A DNA stretch of 64,000 nt from Actinomycetota bacterium (GTDB taxonomy: Bacteria > Actinomycetota > Acidimicrobiia > Acidimicrobiales > Iamiaceae): positions 310,001 to 374,000 of the forward strand of contig JAHBSO010000001.1 in the NCBI GenBank assembly GCA_019639075.1. The letters are read 5' to 3'. The notes under the pieces were generated by a model. It did no database searches, had not been told where the DNA came from, and saw nothing but the letters and a program-made list of their open reading frames with translations. Below are positions 41,189 through 62,356 of the stretch, piece by piece; positions within the stretch are counted from its first letter, which is position 1, and every line of letters begins with the position of its first letter. The translations under genes were made by a program, and so were the position numbers.

Positions 41189-42760
41189 ATGTCCATGGAC
41201 CGAGGAGCGACCGACCTGGCGGCGGTGCTGGCAGCGCAAGCCGGTGACGCCGACGCGTTCGGCCGGCTGTACCTGGCGTGGTTCGACCGCGTCCACGACG
41301 TCGTCCGTCGCATCACGCGGGATCCGCACGTCGCCGACGAGGTCACCCAGGACGTCTTCCTCGATGCGTACCGGAAGCTCGACACGCTGCGGTCACCGGA
41401 CGCGTTCGGTGGCTGGCTGCTCCGCTCGGCCCGGAACCGGGCCCTCAACCGGATCCGGCACGAGCAGCGGTCGGTCGCCGTCGACCCCGGGGGAGACGAC
41501 GACGTGAGCGGGCACCCGCTCGACCGCGGGACCGGGTACGCGGTCGACGAACGGTTCGCGGCCGACGAGAACGACGAGCTCGTCCGGGCCGCGGCCGCGG
41601 CGCTCGGCGAGGCCGACGCCGGCATCCTCCACCTGCACCTCCGCCACGGCCTCGACGGGGCCGAGCTGGCCGAGGAGCTGGGGGTCGAGCCCAACGCGGT
41701 CCACCAGCGCCTGTTCCGGCTGCGGAAGCGGCTGGCCGACGCGATCCGGTCCTGGCAGCTGTGGCGCCACGGCCGCCCGCGGTGCCCGGCGCTCCGCGTC
41801 GCCCTGGAGGCGCAGGCCGTGGCCGGGTTCGATGCCGCGACGGCGAAGATCATCGATCGTCACGCCTCGGCCTGCGACGAGTGCGACGACGAGCGCCGGC
41901 GATCGACGGCGCCCGCCGCGCTGTTCGCGGCGGTGCCCGTGCTGTTGGTGCCGGCCGTGGCCAAGGCCGAGGTGGCCCGGGGGCTCGTCGAGGCGGGCGT
42001 CCCGCTCCCACCCGAGTACACCGACCCGGCGTTCGTCGAGGCCGCGTCGACCGTGCCGGACGGGCCGCACCCGGTGTCCGACGGTCGGCGGGGCGCACGG
42101 TCGGCCCGCAGGATCGCGGTCCTCGCCGTGGCTGCCGTCGCGTTGGTGGCGGTGTCCCTCGCGGTCTGGGCGGCGCCGACCGGGCACGACCCCGATCGCT
42201 CGGCATCCGGACCGGAAGGGGAGGCGTTCGCCACCGGCCCGCTCGCCGGTGACCTGGGCCGGTCGGACGGGGCCGGCACCTCCGGGGTCGACGTCGAGGT
42301 CGTCGACCCGTCGGACGCGACGTCGACGACCGCCGTCACGTCGACCGACCGGGTCCCGACCGGCTCCGACGTGGCGCCCGCGGATCCGACGTCCCCCGAT
42401 GTCGCGGTCGAGCAGCCCGATCCGGTCCCGATCCCGGTCGACGACCCGCCGACGACACCGCCGGCCGGTGCGCCGAGCAGCTCGACGACGACGGTGCCAC
42501 CGGCGCCGGAGGTCGTGCGGTTCAGCGCCCGACGCATCGCCGCCACCGGCGACTGCCGTACGCCGTCGAGTCGCATCGTGGTCACGTGGGCGACCTCCGG
42601 GGCGACCTCGGTGACCCTCACGGCACCCGACGGCACGCGCGCGGTCGCGGCCGAGGGCACCACCGTGGTGTGCCACGCCACCGCCGGTCGGTTCGCGCTC
42701 GAGGCGACCGGGCCGGGCGGCACCAGCACCGCGGGTCCGATCGTCGTCAGCGCTGGGTGA
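41189..42760 (+). CDS. ECF sigma factor fused to zinc-binding motif, membrane segment and outer domain
   Basis: This is a 523-residue protein. Sigma-2 (FGRLYLAWFDRVHDVVRRITRDPHVADEVTQDVFLDAYRKL, about residues 24-90) and sigma-4 (LRHGLDGAELAEELGVEPNAVHQRLFRLRKRL, about 150-183) are intact. After them H225-x3-C229-x2-C232 matches the zinc anti-sigma motif. A hydrophobic segment (about 309-328) should cross the membrane. A long Pro/Ser/Thr/Asp linker and an Ig-like C-terminus (RIVVTWATSGATSVTLTAPDGTR) would lie outside. Sigma factor, anti-sigma and sensor appear fused in one chain. The start ATG at 41189 is favoured over ATG at 41195 by its position after GGGGTG. Autoregulation through the motif at 41111-41142 is likely. 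Confidence 0.9.
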   Translation: MSMDRGATDLAAVLAAQAGDADAFGRLYLAWFDRVHDVVRRITRDPHVADEVTQDVFLDAYRKLDTLRSPDAFGGWLLRSARNRALNRIRHEQRSVAVDPGGDDDVSGHPLDRGTGYAVDERFAADENDELVRAAAAALGEADAGILHLHLRHGLDGAELAEELGVEPNAVHQRLFRLRKRLADAIRSWQLWRHGRPRCPALRVALEAQAVAGFDAATAKIIDRHASACDECDDERRRSTAPAALFAAVPVLLVPAVAKAEVARGLVEAGVPLPPEYTDPAFVEAASTVPDGPHPVSDGRRGARSARRIAVLAVAAVALVAVSLAVWAAPTGHDPDRSASGPEGEAFATGPLAGDLGRSDGAGTSGVDVEVVDPSDATSTTAVTSTDRVPTGSDVAPADPTSPDVAVEQPDPVPIPVDDPPTTPPAGAPSSSTTTVPPAPEVVRFSARRIAATGDCRTPSSRIVVTWATSGATSVTLTAPDGTRAVAAEGTTVVCHATAGRFALEATGPGGTSTAGPIVVSAG

Positions 42761-51602: not shown

Positions 51603-53165
51603 TCAGTTCACCTGGCGGTCCTGCCCGGCCCAGTACGTCTCGCGGAGCTTGAACTTCTGGAGCTTGCCGGTGGCGGTGCGGGCCAGCACGTCGCGGAACT
51701 CGATCCGCTTGGGCACCTTGTAGCCGGCCAGCTTCGTGCGGCAGTGGTCGCGCAGGGTCGCCTCGTCGGCCTCCGCGCCCGGGGCGAGCACCACGAGCGC
51801 CAGCACCAGCTCGCCCCACTTCTCGTCGGGCACACCGATCACGGCGACCTCGGCGACCGAAGGGTGCGAGAACAGCGCGTCCTCGACCTCGATCGACGAC
51901 ACGTTCTCGCCGCCCGAGATGATCACGTCCTTCTTGCGGTCCGAGATGGTGACGTAGTGCTCCTCGTCGACGATGCCGCCGTCGCCGGTGTGGAACCAGC
52001 CGTCGACGATGGCCTCGGCGGTGGCCTCGGGCTGCTCCCAGTAGCCCTCGAGCACGTGGTTGCCGCGGGCGATCACCTCGCCCTGGCCGTCGACCGCCAC
52101 CTCGATGCCGAGCGCCGGCGCGCCGGCCCGCCCGAGCTTGGCCGCCCGCTCGCCCGGCGTGAGGCCGTCCCACTCGGCCCGGCCGCGGTTCATGGTCAGC
52201 AGGGGCGCGGTCTCGGTGAGGCCGTAGATCTGGATGAACTCCCACCCGAGCTCGGTCTCGACCCGCTCGATCGTGCGGGTGGGCGGCGGCGCCCCGGCGA
52301 CCACGATGCGGGTGCGGTCGCGGCCCGGGATCGGCCCGTCCCAGTCGGTGGCCGCGTCGAGGATCATGTTGACCACCGCCGGCGCCCCGCACATCGCCGT
52401 GACGCCGTGCTCGTCGACCCGACGGAGGATCTCGGCCCCGTCGATCTTGCGGATCACCACCTGCGTCACGCCCATCCCGGTGGTGGCGTAGGGCATGCCC
52501 CAGCCGTTGCAGTGGAACATCGGCAGCGTGTGGAGGAAGACGTCGCGGTCGCTGATGCTCGACTGCCAGCCGAAGACGGTGGCGTTCAGCCACAGCGACC
52601 GGTGGGTCTGCTGGACGCCCTTGGGTCGGGCGGTCGTGCCGCTCGTGTAGTTGATGACCGCGGTGGCGGACTCGTCGGGCGCCCACGGCTCGGGCTCGGA
52701 GTCGGCGGCGGCGCCGGTCGGTCCGTCGACGAGGCCGAACAGCTCGGCGTCGGCGTCGGCGCCGATCACGAACCGGTGCTCGGCGTCGACGCCGGCCAGG
52801 TCGTCCTCCAGCTCCGGGTCGACGAGCAGCACCCGGGCGCCGCTGTGGCCGACGATGTAGCGCACCTCCTCGGCGGCCAGGCGGAAGTTGACCGGGACCA
52901 GCACCCGGCCCGAACCGCTCACGCCGAAGAACGACGTCAGCAGCCGGGCGGCGTTGTGGGACACGACGGCCACGCGGTCGCCGACGCCGACCCCGAGCCG
53001 GTCGAGCGCCGCGGCCTGGGCCCGGGCCCGCCGGGCCATCTCCCGGTAGGTGATCGAACCCCACGACGGTGCGACCTGGTCGGGCTCGTCGACCGCACCG
53101 ATGCGGTCCGGGTAGACCTGCTCGGCCCTCCGGAGGAAGTCGTTGACCGTCAACGGGACCTGCAC
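51603..53165 (-). CDS. AMP-dependent acyl-CoA ligase
   Basis: This is a 520-residue adenylate-forming enzyme. The P-loop is INYTSGTTARPKGVQQTHRS near residue 170, IYGLTETAPLLTMN near residue 315, the hinge GWFHTGDGGIVDEEHYVTISDRKKD near residue 405, and the C-terminal Lys lies in LARTATGKLQKFKLRE. It resembles medium/long-chain FadD and aromatic ligases. GGAGGAA 5 nt before the GTG supports the start. It follows MpaB and TetR genes on the same strand with a 62-nt gap, so all three may answer to the palindrome at 54951. Confidence 0.93.
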   Translation of the reverse strand: MQVPLTVNDFLRRAEQVYPDRIGAVDEPDQVAPSWGSITYREMARRARAQAAALDRLGVGVGDRVAVVSHNAARLLTSFFGVSGSGRVLVPVNFRLAAEEVRYIVGHSGARVLLVDPELEDDLAGVDAEHRFVIGADADAELFGLVDGPTGAAADSEPEPWAPDESATAVINYTSGTTARPKGVQQTHRSLWLNATVFGWQSSISDRDVFLHTLPMFHCNGWGMPYATTGMGVTQVVIRKIDGAEILRRVDEHGVTAMCGAPAVVNMILDAATDWDGPIPGRDRTRIVVAGAPPPTRTIERVETELGWEFIQIYGLTETAPLLTMNRGRAEWDGLTPGERAAKLGRAGAPALGIEVAVDGQGEVIARGNHVLEGYWEQPEATAEAIVDGWFHTGDGGIVDEEHYVTISDRKKDVIISGGENVSSIEVEDALFSHPSVAEVAVIGVPDEKWGELVLALVVLAPGAEADEATLRDHCRTKLAGYKVPKRIEFRDVLARTATGKLQKFKLRETYWAGQDRQVN

Positions 53166-53227: not shown

Positions 53228-53866
53228 TCAGGTCCCCGGCCGGGCACCCGTCGTCGCGGTGGCGTACAGCGCGAGCGCGAGCTCGACGGAGCGGTCGACG
53301 ACCACGTCGAGGTCGTCGCCCAGCCGTCCGTCGGCCCAGGCCTCGGCGAGCGCGCCCATCGACCCGGCGAACATGGTGCCGAACACCGCGAGGCGGTCGG
53401 CGTCGAGGTCCGTGCTGCCGAGGAGTCGGGCGTCGGAGCTGTAGGCCTGGATCTGGGCGAGGAAGCCCTGGCGGCGCCGCTGGCCGAGCGTCGGGTTCCC
53501 GGGCCAGCCCGAGATGAGCACCCGAGCCCGGCGCGGGTCCTCGGTGAGGTGGCGCAGCACCGACTCGATGCCCGCCCGGATCACCTCGGCCGGCTCGGAT
53601 CCCCGCGTGGCCAGGTCGCCCTCCACCCGCACCGCGAGCCCGGCGAGGTGCTGGTCGTAGAGGGCGCCGAGCAGGTCATCGAGGTCGGTGAAGCTCTCGT
53701 AGAAGTAGCGGGGGTTGAGGCCCGCGACCCGCAGCACCGCCCGCACGGTGACGGCGGCGTCGTCCTCGGCGAGCAGCTCGTCGGCGGCGTCGAGGAGCCG
53801 GGCCCGCCGTTCACGGGCGCGCTCCTCGGCCGTGGTGCCGGCCCACGTGCCGGTCTGCGTGCTCAG
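53228..53866 (-). CDS. TetR family regulator with a probable CTG start
   Basis: This is a protein of about 212 residues. ERRARLLDAADELLAEDDAAVTVRAVLRVAGLNPRYFYESFTDLDDLLGAL is a TetR helix-turn-helix, and the C-terminal half is helical. The frame has no ATG, GTG or TTG between the upstream gene's stop region and the helix-turn-helix. CTG at 53864-53866 overlaps the stop of the MpaB gene (CTGA) and has GAGG 7 nt upstream, which fits translational coupling with a rare start codon. It is the probable repressor of the palindrome at 54951-54993. Confidence 0.85.
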   Translation of the reverse strand: MSTQTGTWAGTTAEERARERRARLLDAADELLAEDDAAVTVRAVLRVAGLNPRYFYESFTDLDDLLGALYDQHLAGLAVRVEGDLATRGSEPAEVIRAGIESVLRHLTEDPRRARVLISGWPGNPTLGQRRRQGFLAQIQAYSSDARLLGSTDLDADRLAVFGTMFAGSMGALAEAWADGRLGDDLDVVVDRSVELALALYATATTGARPGT

Positions 53867-54909
53867 GCCATCGCCTCGACGTCGTCGCGGGTGAGGGAGC
53901 GGTCGATCGCGATCGCGCCCGGCCCCTCGGGGTCGACGGGTCGGTTCAGGCCGCCGGCCACCCGGGCCCGGGACTGCTCGACCTCGTCGAGCGTGCCGGT
54001 GATGCGGGTGAGCTGGCGCACCGCGGTGCGCATCGTGGCCCGGCGGAGCTCGGTGCGCACCCGGTCGACCCGGCGGTGCTGCACCATGGCCTGGGCCCAG
54101 GGCGGGAGGAGGTCGCGCACCACCCAGTCGATGCCGATGCCGCCCGGCGCGAAGAACGGCGCGGCGGAGCGGTCGAGCATGTTGTTGGTGGTGATGGCCT
54201 TCTGGTGGGTGACCGCCAGCCGCGGCAGGTACGACTGGAGGCAGTCGAGCGTCTCCTGCTTGGTGGTGGGCAGGTCGGTGCCGCCGAGGCCCTCGCCGAC
54301 CCGGGTGAACTCCCGGTAGTACTCGTCGAGCTCGGCGCCCCGGAGCGGCTCCGGGTGGTAGTGCTCGTGGGCGGTGGCGAGGCCCCAGACGACGGTGGCG
54401 TAGTTCCAGCGCAGCCAGTCCGGGTCCTCGGCGTCGTAGACCGCGCCGTCGGGCCGGACGCCCTTCACCGTGCGGTGCATGCCCCGGACGACCCGGGTGA
54501 GGCGTTCGGCCGACTCGGTCGACGCGAACGCCGTGCCGAGGAAGAACGAGATCGAGTGGCCGAAGCGCACCGCGGCGCCCTCGGCGTCGATGCGGCCGGT
54601 GGGCTTGCCGTCGATGCGTTCGGGGATGCGGGAGTGATCCGCGCCCATCCACATGATGCTGGGGTCGAGCTGCTCGATGTAGGCGGCGGCGAACAGGCCG
54701 AGCGCCATGGTCGGGAAGTGGGCGTGGACGTACCAGACCCGGCTGTCGGGCCCGAACCAGCCCGGGTCGCCCTCCGGTCCGGCGAAGTCGATGCGCTTGA
54801 AGTAGCGGGACCGGACGTTGGCGTCGAAGTTCTTCGCGAACCCCTCGCGCAGCGGGGCGAGCGGGTCGGTCGGGTTCGGCAGCGACGAGAGCGACGGCAG
54901 CGTGGGCAC
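53863..54909 (-). CDS. Oxygenase MpaB / DUF2236 family protein
   Basis: This is a 348-residue haem- or metal-type oxygenase family member. FGPDSRVWYVHAHFPTMALGLFAAAYIEQLDPSIMWMGADHSRIPER, RVVRGMHRTVKGVRPDGAVYDAEDPDWLRWNYATVVWGLATAHEHYH and DEYYREFTRVGEGLGGTDLPTT hold the conserved Arg, His and acidic positions of the DUF2236 group, which includes latex-clearing protein and the mycophenolate farnesyl-cleaving enzyme. The substrate is likely a terpenoid or lipid with C=C bonds, by family analogy. GTG at 54909 is chosen because GGAGG lies 4 nt upstream. Its promoter TAGGGT sits in the centre of the 16-bp palindrome. Confidence 0.87.
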   Translation of the reverse strand: MPTLPSLSSLPNPTDPLAPLREGFAKNFDANVRSRYFKRIDFAGPEGDPGWFGPDSRVWYVHAHFPTMALGLFAAAYIEQLDPSIMWMGADHSRIPERIDGKPTGRIDAEGAAVRFGHSISFFLGTAFASTESAERLTRVVRGMHRTVKGVRPDGAVYDAEDPDWLRWNYATVVWGLATAHEHYHPEPLRGAELDEYYREFTRVGEGLGGTDLPTTKQETLDCLQSYLPRLAVTHQKAITTNNMLDRSAAPFFAPGGIGIDWVVRDLLPPWAQAMVQHRRVDRVRTELRRATMRTAVRQLTRITGTLDEVEQSRARVAGGLNRPVDPEGPGAIAIDRSLTRDDVEAMA

Positions 54910-54950
54910 GGGGCCTCCAGTGGCGGAAGGGTGGCGGATCCGGTTTGGCA

Positions 54951-54993
54951 ACGGCTGTTTCCAACCGGCACCCTACGGGTTGGAAACAGCCGT
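54951..54993. promoter_or_regulatory. Perfect 16-bp inverted repeat with a -10 box in its loop
   Basis: ACGGCTGTTTCCAACC (54951-54966) and its exact complement (54978-54993) are separated by 11 nt. On the minus strand the loop contains TAGGGT (54970-54975), the likely -10 of the MpaB/TetR unit. Its symmetry and place upstream of a TetR gene mark it as that repressor's operator. It also lies 54 nt before the divergent LLM gene. Confidence 0.85.
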
Positions 54994-55032
54994 GTCCAAG
55001 CACCTCCCGCGGACTTCGTCGGAGGTCGCCGG

Positions 55033-55038
55033 TAGGGT
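55033..55038 (+). promoter_or_regulatory. -10 box of a leaderless start (LLM gene at 55047)
   Basis: TAGGGT lies 8 nt before the ATG. Confidence 0.5.
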
Positions 55039-55046
55039 CGCCACCC

Positions 55047-55952
55047 ATGCGCATCGGACTCTTCTTCGGCGACGCCACCCTCGACCAGCTCATCGGTGCG
55101 GCCCGCACCGCCGAGGAGCAGGGCTTCGACTCGATCTGGCTGCCCCAGATCTTCGGCCTCGACGCCCTCGGCGCGCTGACCCTGATCGGCCACGAGGTCC
55201 CCCGGATCGAGCTGGGCACCGCCGTCGTGCCCACCTACCCCCGGCACCCCTCGGCGCTGGCCGGCCAGGCCCTCACAGCCTCGGCGGCCGCCGGTGCGGG
55301 TCGCGTCACCCTCGGCATCGGCCTGTCGCACCAGATCGTCATCGAGCACATGTTCGGGTACTCGTTCGACAAGCCGGTGCGCCACATGCGGGAGTACCTC
55401 ACGGCGCTCGTGCCGCTGCTCGAGGGCGGTGCCGCCGACATCGACGGCGAGACCCTGAGCGCCCACGTCGCCCTCGCCGTGCCCGGGGCGAACCCACCGG
55501 TCCCGGTCGTGGTGGCGGCGCTCGGCCCGAAGATGCTGAAGCTGGCCGCCGAGCGCGCCGCCGGCACGGTCACCTGGATGACCGGCCCGCGCACGCTCGC
55601 CGAGCACACCGTGCCCACGCTGACGGGCGCCGCCGAGGCCGCCGGCACCGGCTCGATGCGGGTCGTGAGCGCGCTGCCCGTCGCGGTGACCGACGACGTC
55701 GCCGGGGCCCGGGCCCGCGCGGCGGAGGTCTTCGCCATCTACGGCGGGCTGCCGTCGTACCGGGCGATGATCGACCGCGAGGGGGCCGCCGGGCCCGAGG
55801 ACGTCGCCCTCGTCGGCACGGCCGCCGAGGTCCGGGCCGGCATCGAGGCCATGCGCGACGCCGGGGTCACCGACTTCGTCGCCGTCGAGTTCTCCACCGA
55901 CGAGCCCACCGCCAGCGCCACCCGCGGGCTGCTGCGCGAGCTGCTCGCGTGA
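55047..55952 (+). CDS. LLM class F420-dependent oxidoreductase (TIGR03564-like)
   Basis: This is a 301-residue TIM-barrel protein. MRIGLFFGDATLDQLIGAARTAEEQGFDSIWLPQIFG, IELGTAVVPTYPRHPSALAGQALTASAAAGAGRVTLGIGLSHQIVIEHMFGYSFDKPVRHMREYL and VPVVVAALGPKMLKLAAERAAGTVTWMTGP match the TIGR03564 F420-dependent group. It is probably leaderless. The downstream hydrolase overlaps it by four bases (GTGA), so both belong to one message. A shared substrate is possible, with the LLM enzyme oxidising or reducing and the hydrolase cleaving it. Confidence 0.93.
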   Translation: MRIGLFFGDATLDQLIGAARTAEEQGFDSIWLPQIFGLDALGALTLIGHEVPRIELGTAVVPTYPRHPSALAGQALTASAAAGAGRVTLGIGLSHQIVIEHMFGYSFDKPVRHMREYLTALVPLLEGGAADIDGETLSAHVALAVPGANPPVPVVVAALGPKMLKLAAERAAGTVTWMTGPRTLAEHTVPTLTGAAEAAGTGSMRVVSALPVAVTDDVAGARARAAEVFAIYGGLPSYRAMIDREGAAGPEDVALVGTAAEVRAGIEAMRDAGVTDFVAVEFSTDEPTASATRGLLRELLA

Positions 55953-61079: not shown

Positions 61080-61128
61080 GTTCTTCGGGGAGATCTTGGG
61101 GCTGACACCGCCGATTCCCCCGAAGAAC
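61080..61128. repeat. 49-bp hairpin repeat, copy A1
   Basis: The left arm GTTCTTCGGGGAGATC and right arm GATTCCCCCGAAGAAC enclose a 17-nt loop. The left arm has a few mismatches. It is separated by 23 nt from copy A2. Confidence 0.85.
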
Positions 61129-61151
61129 CGTCGACAGCTTGGTAGGCCACC

Positions 61152-61200
61152 GTTCTTCGGGGGAATCTTCGGGCACAGCCGGTCGATTCCCCCGAAGAAG
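61152..61200. repeat. 49-bp hairpin repeat, copy A2
   Basis: The arms TTCTTCGGGGGAATC and its complement (61153-61167 and 61185-61199) are perfect over 15 bp and enclose a 17-nt loop. It lies 61 nt before the DUF559-like ATG. Confidence 0.9.
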
Positions 61201-62235: not shown

Positions 62236-62284
62236 CTTCTTCGGCGGGATCTGCCGGCTCAGCCCGCCGATTCCCCCGAAGAAC
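62236..62284. repeat. 49-bp hairpin repeat, copy B1
   Basis: The arms pair at 13 of 16 positions across a 17-nt loop. It lies 43 nt after the DUF559-like stop codon. Confidence 0.85.
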
Positions 62285-62307
62285 CGTCAGGAGCGCGGTC
62301 GTCCGGC

Positions 62308-62356
62308 GTTCTTCGGGGGAATCTGCCGACTCAGCCCGCCGATTCCCCCGAAGAAC
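62308..62356. repeat. 49-bp hairpin repeat, copy B2
   Basis: GTTCTTCGGGGGAATC and its exact complement (62341-62356) form a perfect 16-bp stem with a 17-nt loop. It ends 3 nt before the stop codon of the beta-lactamase-family gene on the other strand. Confidence 0.92.

Follow-up and report, generated by a model that had tools for sequence, protein, structure and literature searches.

The window, i.e. the whole stretch of 64,000 nucleotides that was analysed, has a 43-bp palindrome at 54951-54993, between genes for an MpaB/Lcp-type oxygenase, a TetR-family regulator and an AMP-binding acyl-CoA ligase on the minus strand and a divergent LLM gene on the plus strand (Table 1). The identities that an earlier sequence-only reading had given to these genes were upheld for the oxygenase (PF09995), the AMP-binding ligase and the Bac_luciferase gene. 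The catalytic domain PF09995 in MpaB scores 117 bits against a cut-off of 23. For the regulator the TetR fold is predicted, with a TetR_N match below the cut-off (22.7 bits, E 8.8e-05, cut-off 24). The ligase gene probably shares an operon with MpaB and tetR. Ligase homologues were found in none of 80 loci with a TetR homologue at E 1e-8 and in one of 12 in a further set; by this comparison of loci the ligase falls outside the conserved module.

Table 1. Genes and putative regulatory features around the palindrome
Feature	Position	Strand	Comment
AMP-binding acyl-CoA ligase gene	51603..53165	-	PF00501 and PF13193; 62 bp behind tetR
TetR-family regulator gene	53228..53866	-	Frame overlaps MpaB stop; probable CTG start at 53866
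MpaB/Lcp-type oxygenase gene	53863..54909	-	GTG start, 348 aa; PF09995 MPAB_Lcp_cat, E 1.5e-33
Ribosome-binding site GGAGG of MpaB	54914..54918	-	4 nt before GTG
Operator O-down (predicted)	54945..54964	-	TTGGAAACAGCCGTTGCCAA on minus strand; 0 mismatches to TGGNNACNNNNGTNNCCA; overlaps predicted transcription start
Putative -10 TAGGGT of MpaB operon	54970..54975	-	Gap between operators
Operator O-up (predicted)	54980..54999	-	TTGGACACGGCTGTTTCCAA on minus strand; 0 mismatches to TGGNNACNNNNGTNNCCA; overlaps putative -35 and spacer
Putative -35 TTGGAC	54994..54999	-	Inside O-up; 18-nt spacer; inferred from sequence
LLM (Bac_luciferase) gene	55047..55952	+	PF00296; divergent from MpaB

No usual start codon (ATG, GTG or TTG) is found near the N-terminus of the regulator, and the CTG at 53866 agrees with the starts of relatives. 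This CTG (53864-53866), which overlaps the MpaB stop, may either serve as a rare start codon or reflect an error in the assembly. The AlphaFold2 model of the regulator, built on an alignment of 36 sequences, has nine helices (pLDDT 88.2) and displays the all-helical TetR fold with a HTH and a ligand domain. Foldseek rendered 120 PDB matches at E<=0.001, the best being FasR (TM 0.72), followed among the best 50 of the 120 by EthR2, Rv0078, FadR, DesT and others. A PDB sequence search with the regulator gave weak matches only (3aqs and 3jsj).

The two arms of the palindrome, at 54951-54966 and 54978-54993, match perfectly over 16 bp and enclose an 11-nt loop at 54967-54977. The loop reads GGCACCCTACG, or CGTAGGGTGCC on the minus strand, with TAGGGT at 54975-54970. 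Stem, loop and minus-strand TAGGGT are all exactly where the sequence-only reading had placed them. When two mismatches are allowed the arms extend to 54945-54966/54978-54999 (22 nt, 91%). Arms of 16 bp are not a product of chance, because the longest perfect arm was 13 across 15 simulated 64-kb sequences with the dinucleotide content of the window and a loop of up to 20. A second palindrome with 16-bp arms in the window, at 62308-62356, is part of a dispersed repeat. A dispersed palindromic repeat built on GATTCCCCCGAAGAA occurs at 61113-61199 and 62269-62355, in three-arm sets where the second arm is inverted and the third is direct at +72. It was found at 21 places in the genome with at most one mismatch, compared with none for the reversed control, and looks like a REP-type element.

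Each arm at 54951-54993 belongs to a separate 20-bp dyad (TTGGnnACnGCnGTnnCCAA), and the centres of the two dyads are 35 bp apart. In plus order the dyads are TTGGCAACGGCTGTTTCCAA (54945-54964) and TTGGAAACAGCCGTGTCCAA (54980-54999), each with 8 of 10 pairs matched. Both have no mismatch to the 20-bp pattern TTGGNNACNGCNGTNNCCAA, for which these are the only two perfect matches in the genome assembly (2.74 Mb, 79% complete). Because two near-identical palindromes adjoin each other, the long hairpin is a by-product. The putative -10 lies in the gap between the dyads, and an alternative putative -35, TGGACA with a 17-nt spacer, is equally possible. A strict sigma-70 scan found no promoter. The putative start of the MpaB transcript is near 54963, where O-down would lie across it.

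The TetR of the window was compared with genome contigs and the best 80 of 204 loci were taken. An MpaB homologue (49-59% identical) is found beside TetR, and divergent from it, in 16 of these 80, distributed among Mycolicibacterium, Gordonia, Williamsia, Actinomadura and Mycobacterium. In two mycobacterial loci MpaB is followed on the same strand by a gene for an ABC1/AarF-type kinase (L011:1466-2824) or by kinase and hydrolase genes (L012:548-2848). All 16 relatives have the motif YTGGnYACRnnYGTRnCCAR between the oxygenase and TetR genes. Exact TGGNNACNNNNGTNNCCA is likewise present between the genes in 16/16, whereas the remainder of these loci has one exact match in 109,749 positions. A second site is found 28-32 bp away in 12 of the 16 (with one mismatch in L014), a range that does not include the 35 bp of the window, and four loci (L013, L024, L025 and L030) have a single site. 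When a scoring matrix made solely from 28 sites of relatives was run over the 64-kb window, O-up ranked first and O-down third. The second rank, at 41945, is within a coding frame and was rejected as an operator.

Outside the window, a close MpaB homologue (72% identical) was found in one genome only (G018, of the same family) among 99 genomes with that of the window included. Its locus, L104, has the same gene order, MpaB and then TetR, with a regulator 57% identical to that of the window. Two sites are found there, 31 bp apart with TACTCT between them, and the distance from the upstream operator to the -10 equals that in the window. Both genes are absent at the thresholds used from another 11 genomes belonging to the window's genus, and the module is therefore patchy.

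A TANNNT on the MpaB strand is present in the gap in all 14 two-site loci, the window included, compared with a background of 0.0008 per position. Counting from the first base of the upstream operator, the hexamer starts at base 25 in the window, in L104 and in 8 of 16 other loci. A -10 at the expected place is absent in three of the single-site loci (L024, L025 and L030).

The palindrome might alternatively be functional as one long unit, either as a hairpin formed by RNA or DNA (an attenuator, a terminator or a cruciform) or as an extended operator for a tetramer. The perfect 16-bp arms, which far exceed chance, speak for this. However, in the 13 other two-site loci no more than 12-16 of 20 positions agree when the arms are compared in inverted orientation, although the motif is retained at every site, and the sites of L104 agree at 12/20 positions in inverted but at 18/20 in direct comparison. 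Moreover, a start between the arms would leave a single arm in the transcript, and a terminator search found none. We consider one long functional palindrome very unlikely, and the hairpin as a unit was rejected because the arm-to-arm match is not conserved. The unit conserved across these sequences is each 20-bp site and not the 16-bp match between arms. The suggestion that TetR acts at the MpaB promoter with a -10 in the gap is supported by the conserved sites, the regulator tree and the TANNNT, but the single 43-bp palindrome with a looped-out -10 gives way to two 20-bp operators. The palindrome, proposed as a signal to be sought elsewhere, does recur, as a 20-bp motif in 16/16 MpaB-TetR relatives, but its 16-bp arm-to-arm match is not kept.

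The site also follows the regulator. An exact site is found within 340 bp before TetR in 28/92 relatives compared with 5/2,222 other 340-bp tiles. Of these five tile matches one is accounted for by the pair upstream of MpaB in L104 and another two by the second sites of L026 and L106. Mapped on a tree built from 93 TetR proteins, the presence of the site needs one change, where 500 shuffles gave a mean of 25.7. The 19-row clade holding the window has the site in 19/19 (support 100/99); support for an origin of the site on a single branch is weak (71/26; found in 77% of bootstrap trees). The site is furthermore present in 11 Acidimicrobiia TetR loci without a recognisable MpaB adjoining, namely L026 and L105-L114, the latter being 10 of the 11 stretches L105-L115. 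Among the neighbours examined there are an FAD oxidoreductase and an alpha/beta hydrolase (L113), amidohydrolases (L109 and L111) and a ligase (L105). Since loci lacking MpaB carry it too, the site goes with the regulator and not with MpaB. A palindromic site near the regulator or target promoter is in this way conserved together with the regulator, and this is the main reason for naming TetR as the probable binder.

In two related Acidimicrobiia loci the operator occurs once more at a distance (TTGGCTACAG..GTTGCCAG, at L026:6236 and L106:7243), which suggests a second target.

Operators can be shared, so a regulator other than the adjacent TetR might bind the sites. This is very unlikely given that the site tracks the TetR clade on the tree even where MpaB is missing, and that the 20-bp pattern is matched perfectly in the genome at these two places only. 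Exact TGGNNACNNNNGTNNCCA is found at four places in the genome, the two described here and C12:326000 and C28:100058; the latter two are inside open frames. With up to one mismatch there are 133 places versus 73 for the reversed-pattern control, and weak extra sites are therefore possible.

The sequence-only reading had also suggested an influence on the divergent LLM/hydrolase pair, with which the operators share the intergenic region. LLM-type matches were found in only 1/16 MpaB-TetR relatives, where the gene is downstream of MpaB and not divergent. The LLM gene has a putative -10 of its own (TAGGGT at 55033-55038) and the sites do not overlap this putative promoter; the upstream operator is about 45-64 bp before the guessed LLM start. 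Control of the LLM/hydrolase genes by the operator pair is unlikely, and the suggestion was not supported.

It is highly probable that the -10 lies between two 20-bp operators for the TetR that the operon itself encodes, and that this TetR represses the promoter of MpaB and TetR, probably with the ligase, until a ligand releases it. A TetR dimer on O-up would cover the -35 and the spacer, and another on O-down would cover the start point. Together the two dimers would bar RNA polymerase and keep MpaB, TetR itself and probably the ligase low. Release would follow when TetR meets its ligand, for which a hydrophobic substrate or the acyl-CoA product of that substrate is the likeliest candidate. 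This ligand, like the lipid or terpenoid put forward in the sequence-only reading, is a guess, for which the hints are several acyl-CoA-binding TetRs among the nearest folds of the modelled regulator and the AMP-binding ligase in the putative operon. The site pair itself is real, and because the same pair precedes related genes in many soil bacteria, the mechanism as read from sequence is a fairly ordinary paired-operator repressor switch.

Within the clade of the window an oxygenase is found beside TetR in 18/19 rows. A separate clade of 27 rows has a different gene, similar to that of L033, which is itself a PF09995 gene, divergent to TetR in 24/27. The upstream sites in that clade are related but looser, and are within one mismatch of the motif in 5/27 compared with 2.6% of 1,080 control regions. 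In Amycolatopsis (L043:2053-2100, and also L051, L052 and L053) a pair of related palindromes, TTGACnACAnCnGTnGTCAA, was seen by eye before TetR. These loci are without a similar MpaB and the palindromes are near an LLM gene.

One oxygenase of the MpaB type, Nro1 of Gordonia, is reported to attack nitrile rubber (PMC12724181). Judged by titles and abstracts, no paper on the operator of this TetR clade was found. With the sites described here an uncharacterised TetR lineage gains an exact predicted operator and a link to MpaB-type oxygenases, and the motif might be used to trace the regulons and inducers of such oxygenases.

The layout of the window resembles that of the Tn10 TetR system, where the operators tetO1 and tetO2, palindromes of about 20 bp each and spaced by about 30 bp, cover the promoters of both regulator and target. 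Tn10 differs in operator sequence, in ligand and in target, which is an efflux pump, and unlike Tn10 the window has MpaB and then tetR on one strand. The acyl-CoA-responsive TetRs FasR, FadR and DesT, found among the best 50 of 120 Foldseek matches of the regulator model, have about 14-20% identity to the regulator and are similar in fold only. LcpR-B in Streptomyces coelicolor and LcpR-VH2 in Gordonia belong to the TetR family and regulate the rubber oxygenase Lcp of the MPAB_Lcp superfamily. The palindrome reported for LcpR-B, TATGTTAAT-N2-AAAATCACA (PMC8235351), is unlike the motif of the window.

InbR (Rv0275c) is described as a TetR-type auto-repressor in M. tuberculosis and M. bovis BCG with isoniazid as reported ligand, and its reported DNase I footprint is TGCCGCTAATTATGGAAACACCTGTATCCTGATATTGGCCGG (PMC4564863). 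This footprint contains TGGAAACACCTGTATCCT, one mismatch from the motif of the window. A match as good was found in 81/100,000 shuffles and 36/30,440 random 42-mers. The core of the InbR footprint is accordingly found, at one mismatch, in the operator of the window's clade; the footprint sequence as a whole matched 0/7 and 0/148 genomes searched. InbR is reported to be divergent to its target Rv0276 (PMC6435705), and its footprint covers a single region in which such a site occurs once, compared with two sites in the window. A motif logo for Rv0275c is given in PMC4482099. GplR1 (MAB_1638) in M. abscessus is a TetR-like regulator whose inverted repeat of 23 nt has TCTGG on the outside (PMC12455991), and several relatives in this study have TCTGG...CCAGA. 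According to the same source GplR1 has a wide regulon (ChIP-seq), arms one nucleotide apart in the 23-nt motif and both activating and repressing roles.

Such a double role raises the question whether TetR is an activator or a dual regulator at the window as well. Besides GplR1, the S24L change in Rv0275c is reported to accompany lower expression of Rv0276 (PMC6435705). However, the operators of the window overlap the putative -35 and start point, which is the geometry of a repressor, and InbR is described as repressing its own gene. An activating role is improbable, and repression is the reading preferred here. A broader view, which we hold tentatively and think somewhat doubtful, is that control of MpaB/Lcp-type haem oxygenases is the old and main task of a wide actinobacterial TetR lineage that includes regulators of the InbR and GplR1 type. 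The natural inducers might then be substrates of the oxygenases or their CoA-activated products, and isoniazid would be incidental. In this way the operator link between the window and the mycobacterial regulators offers a metabolic reading of InbR.
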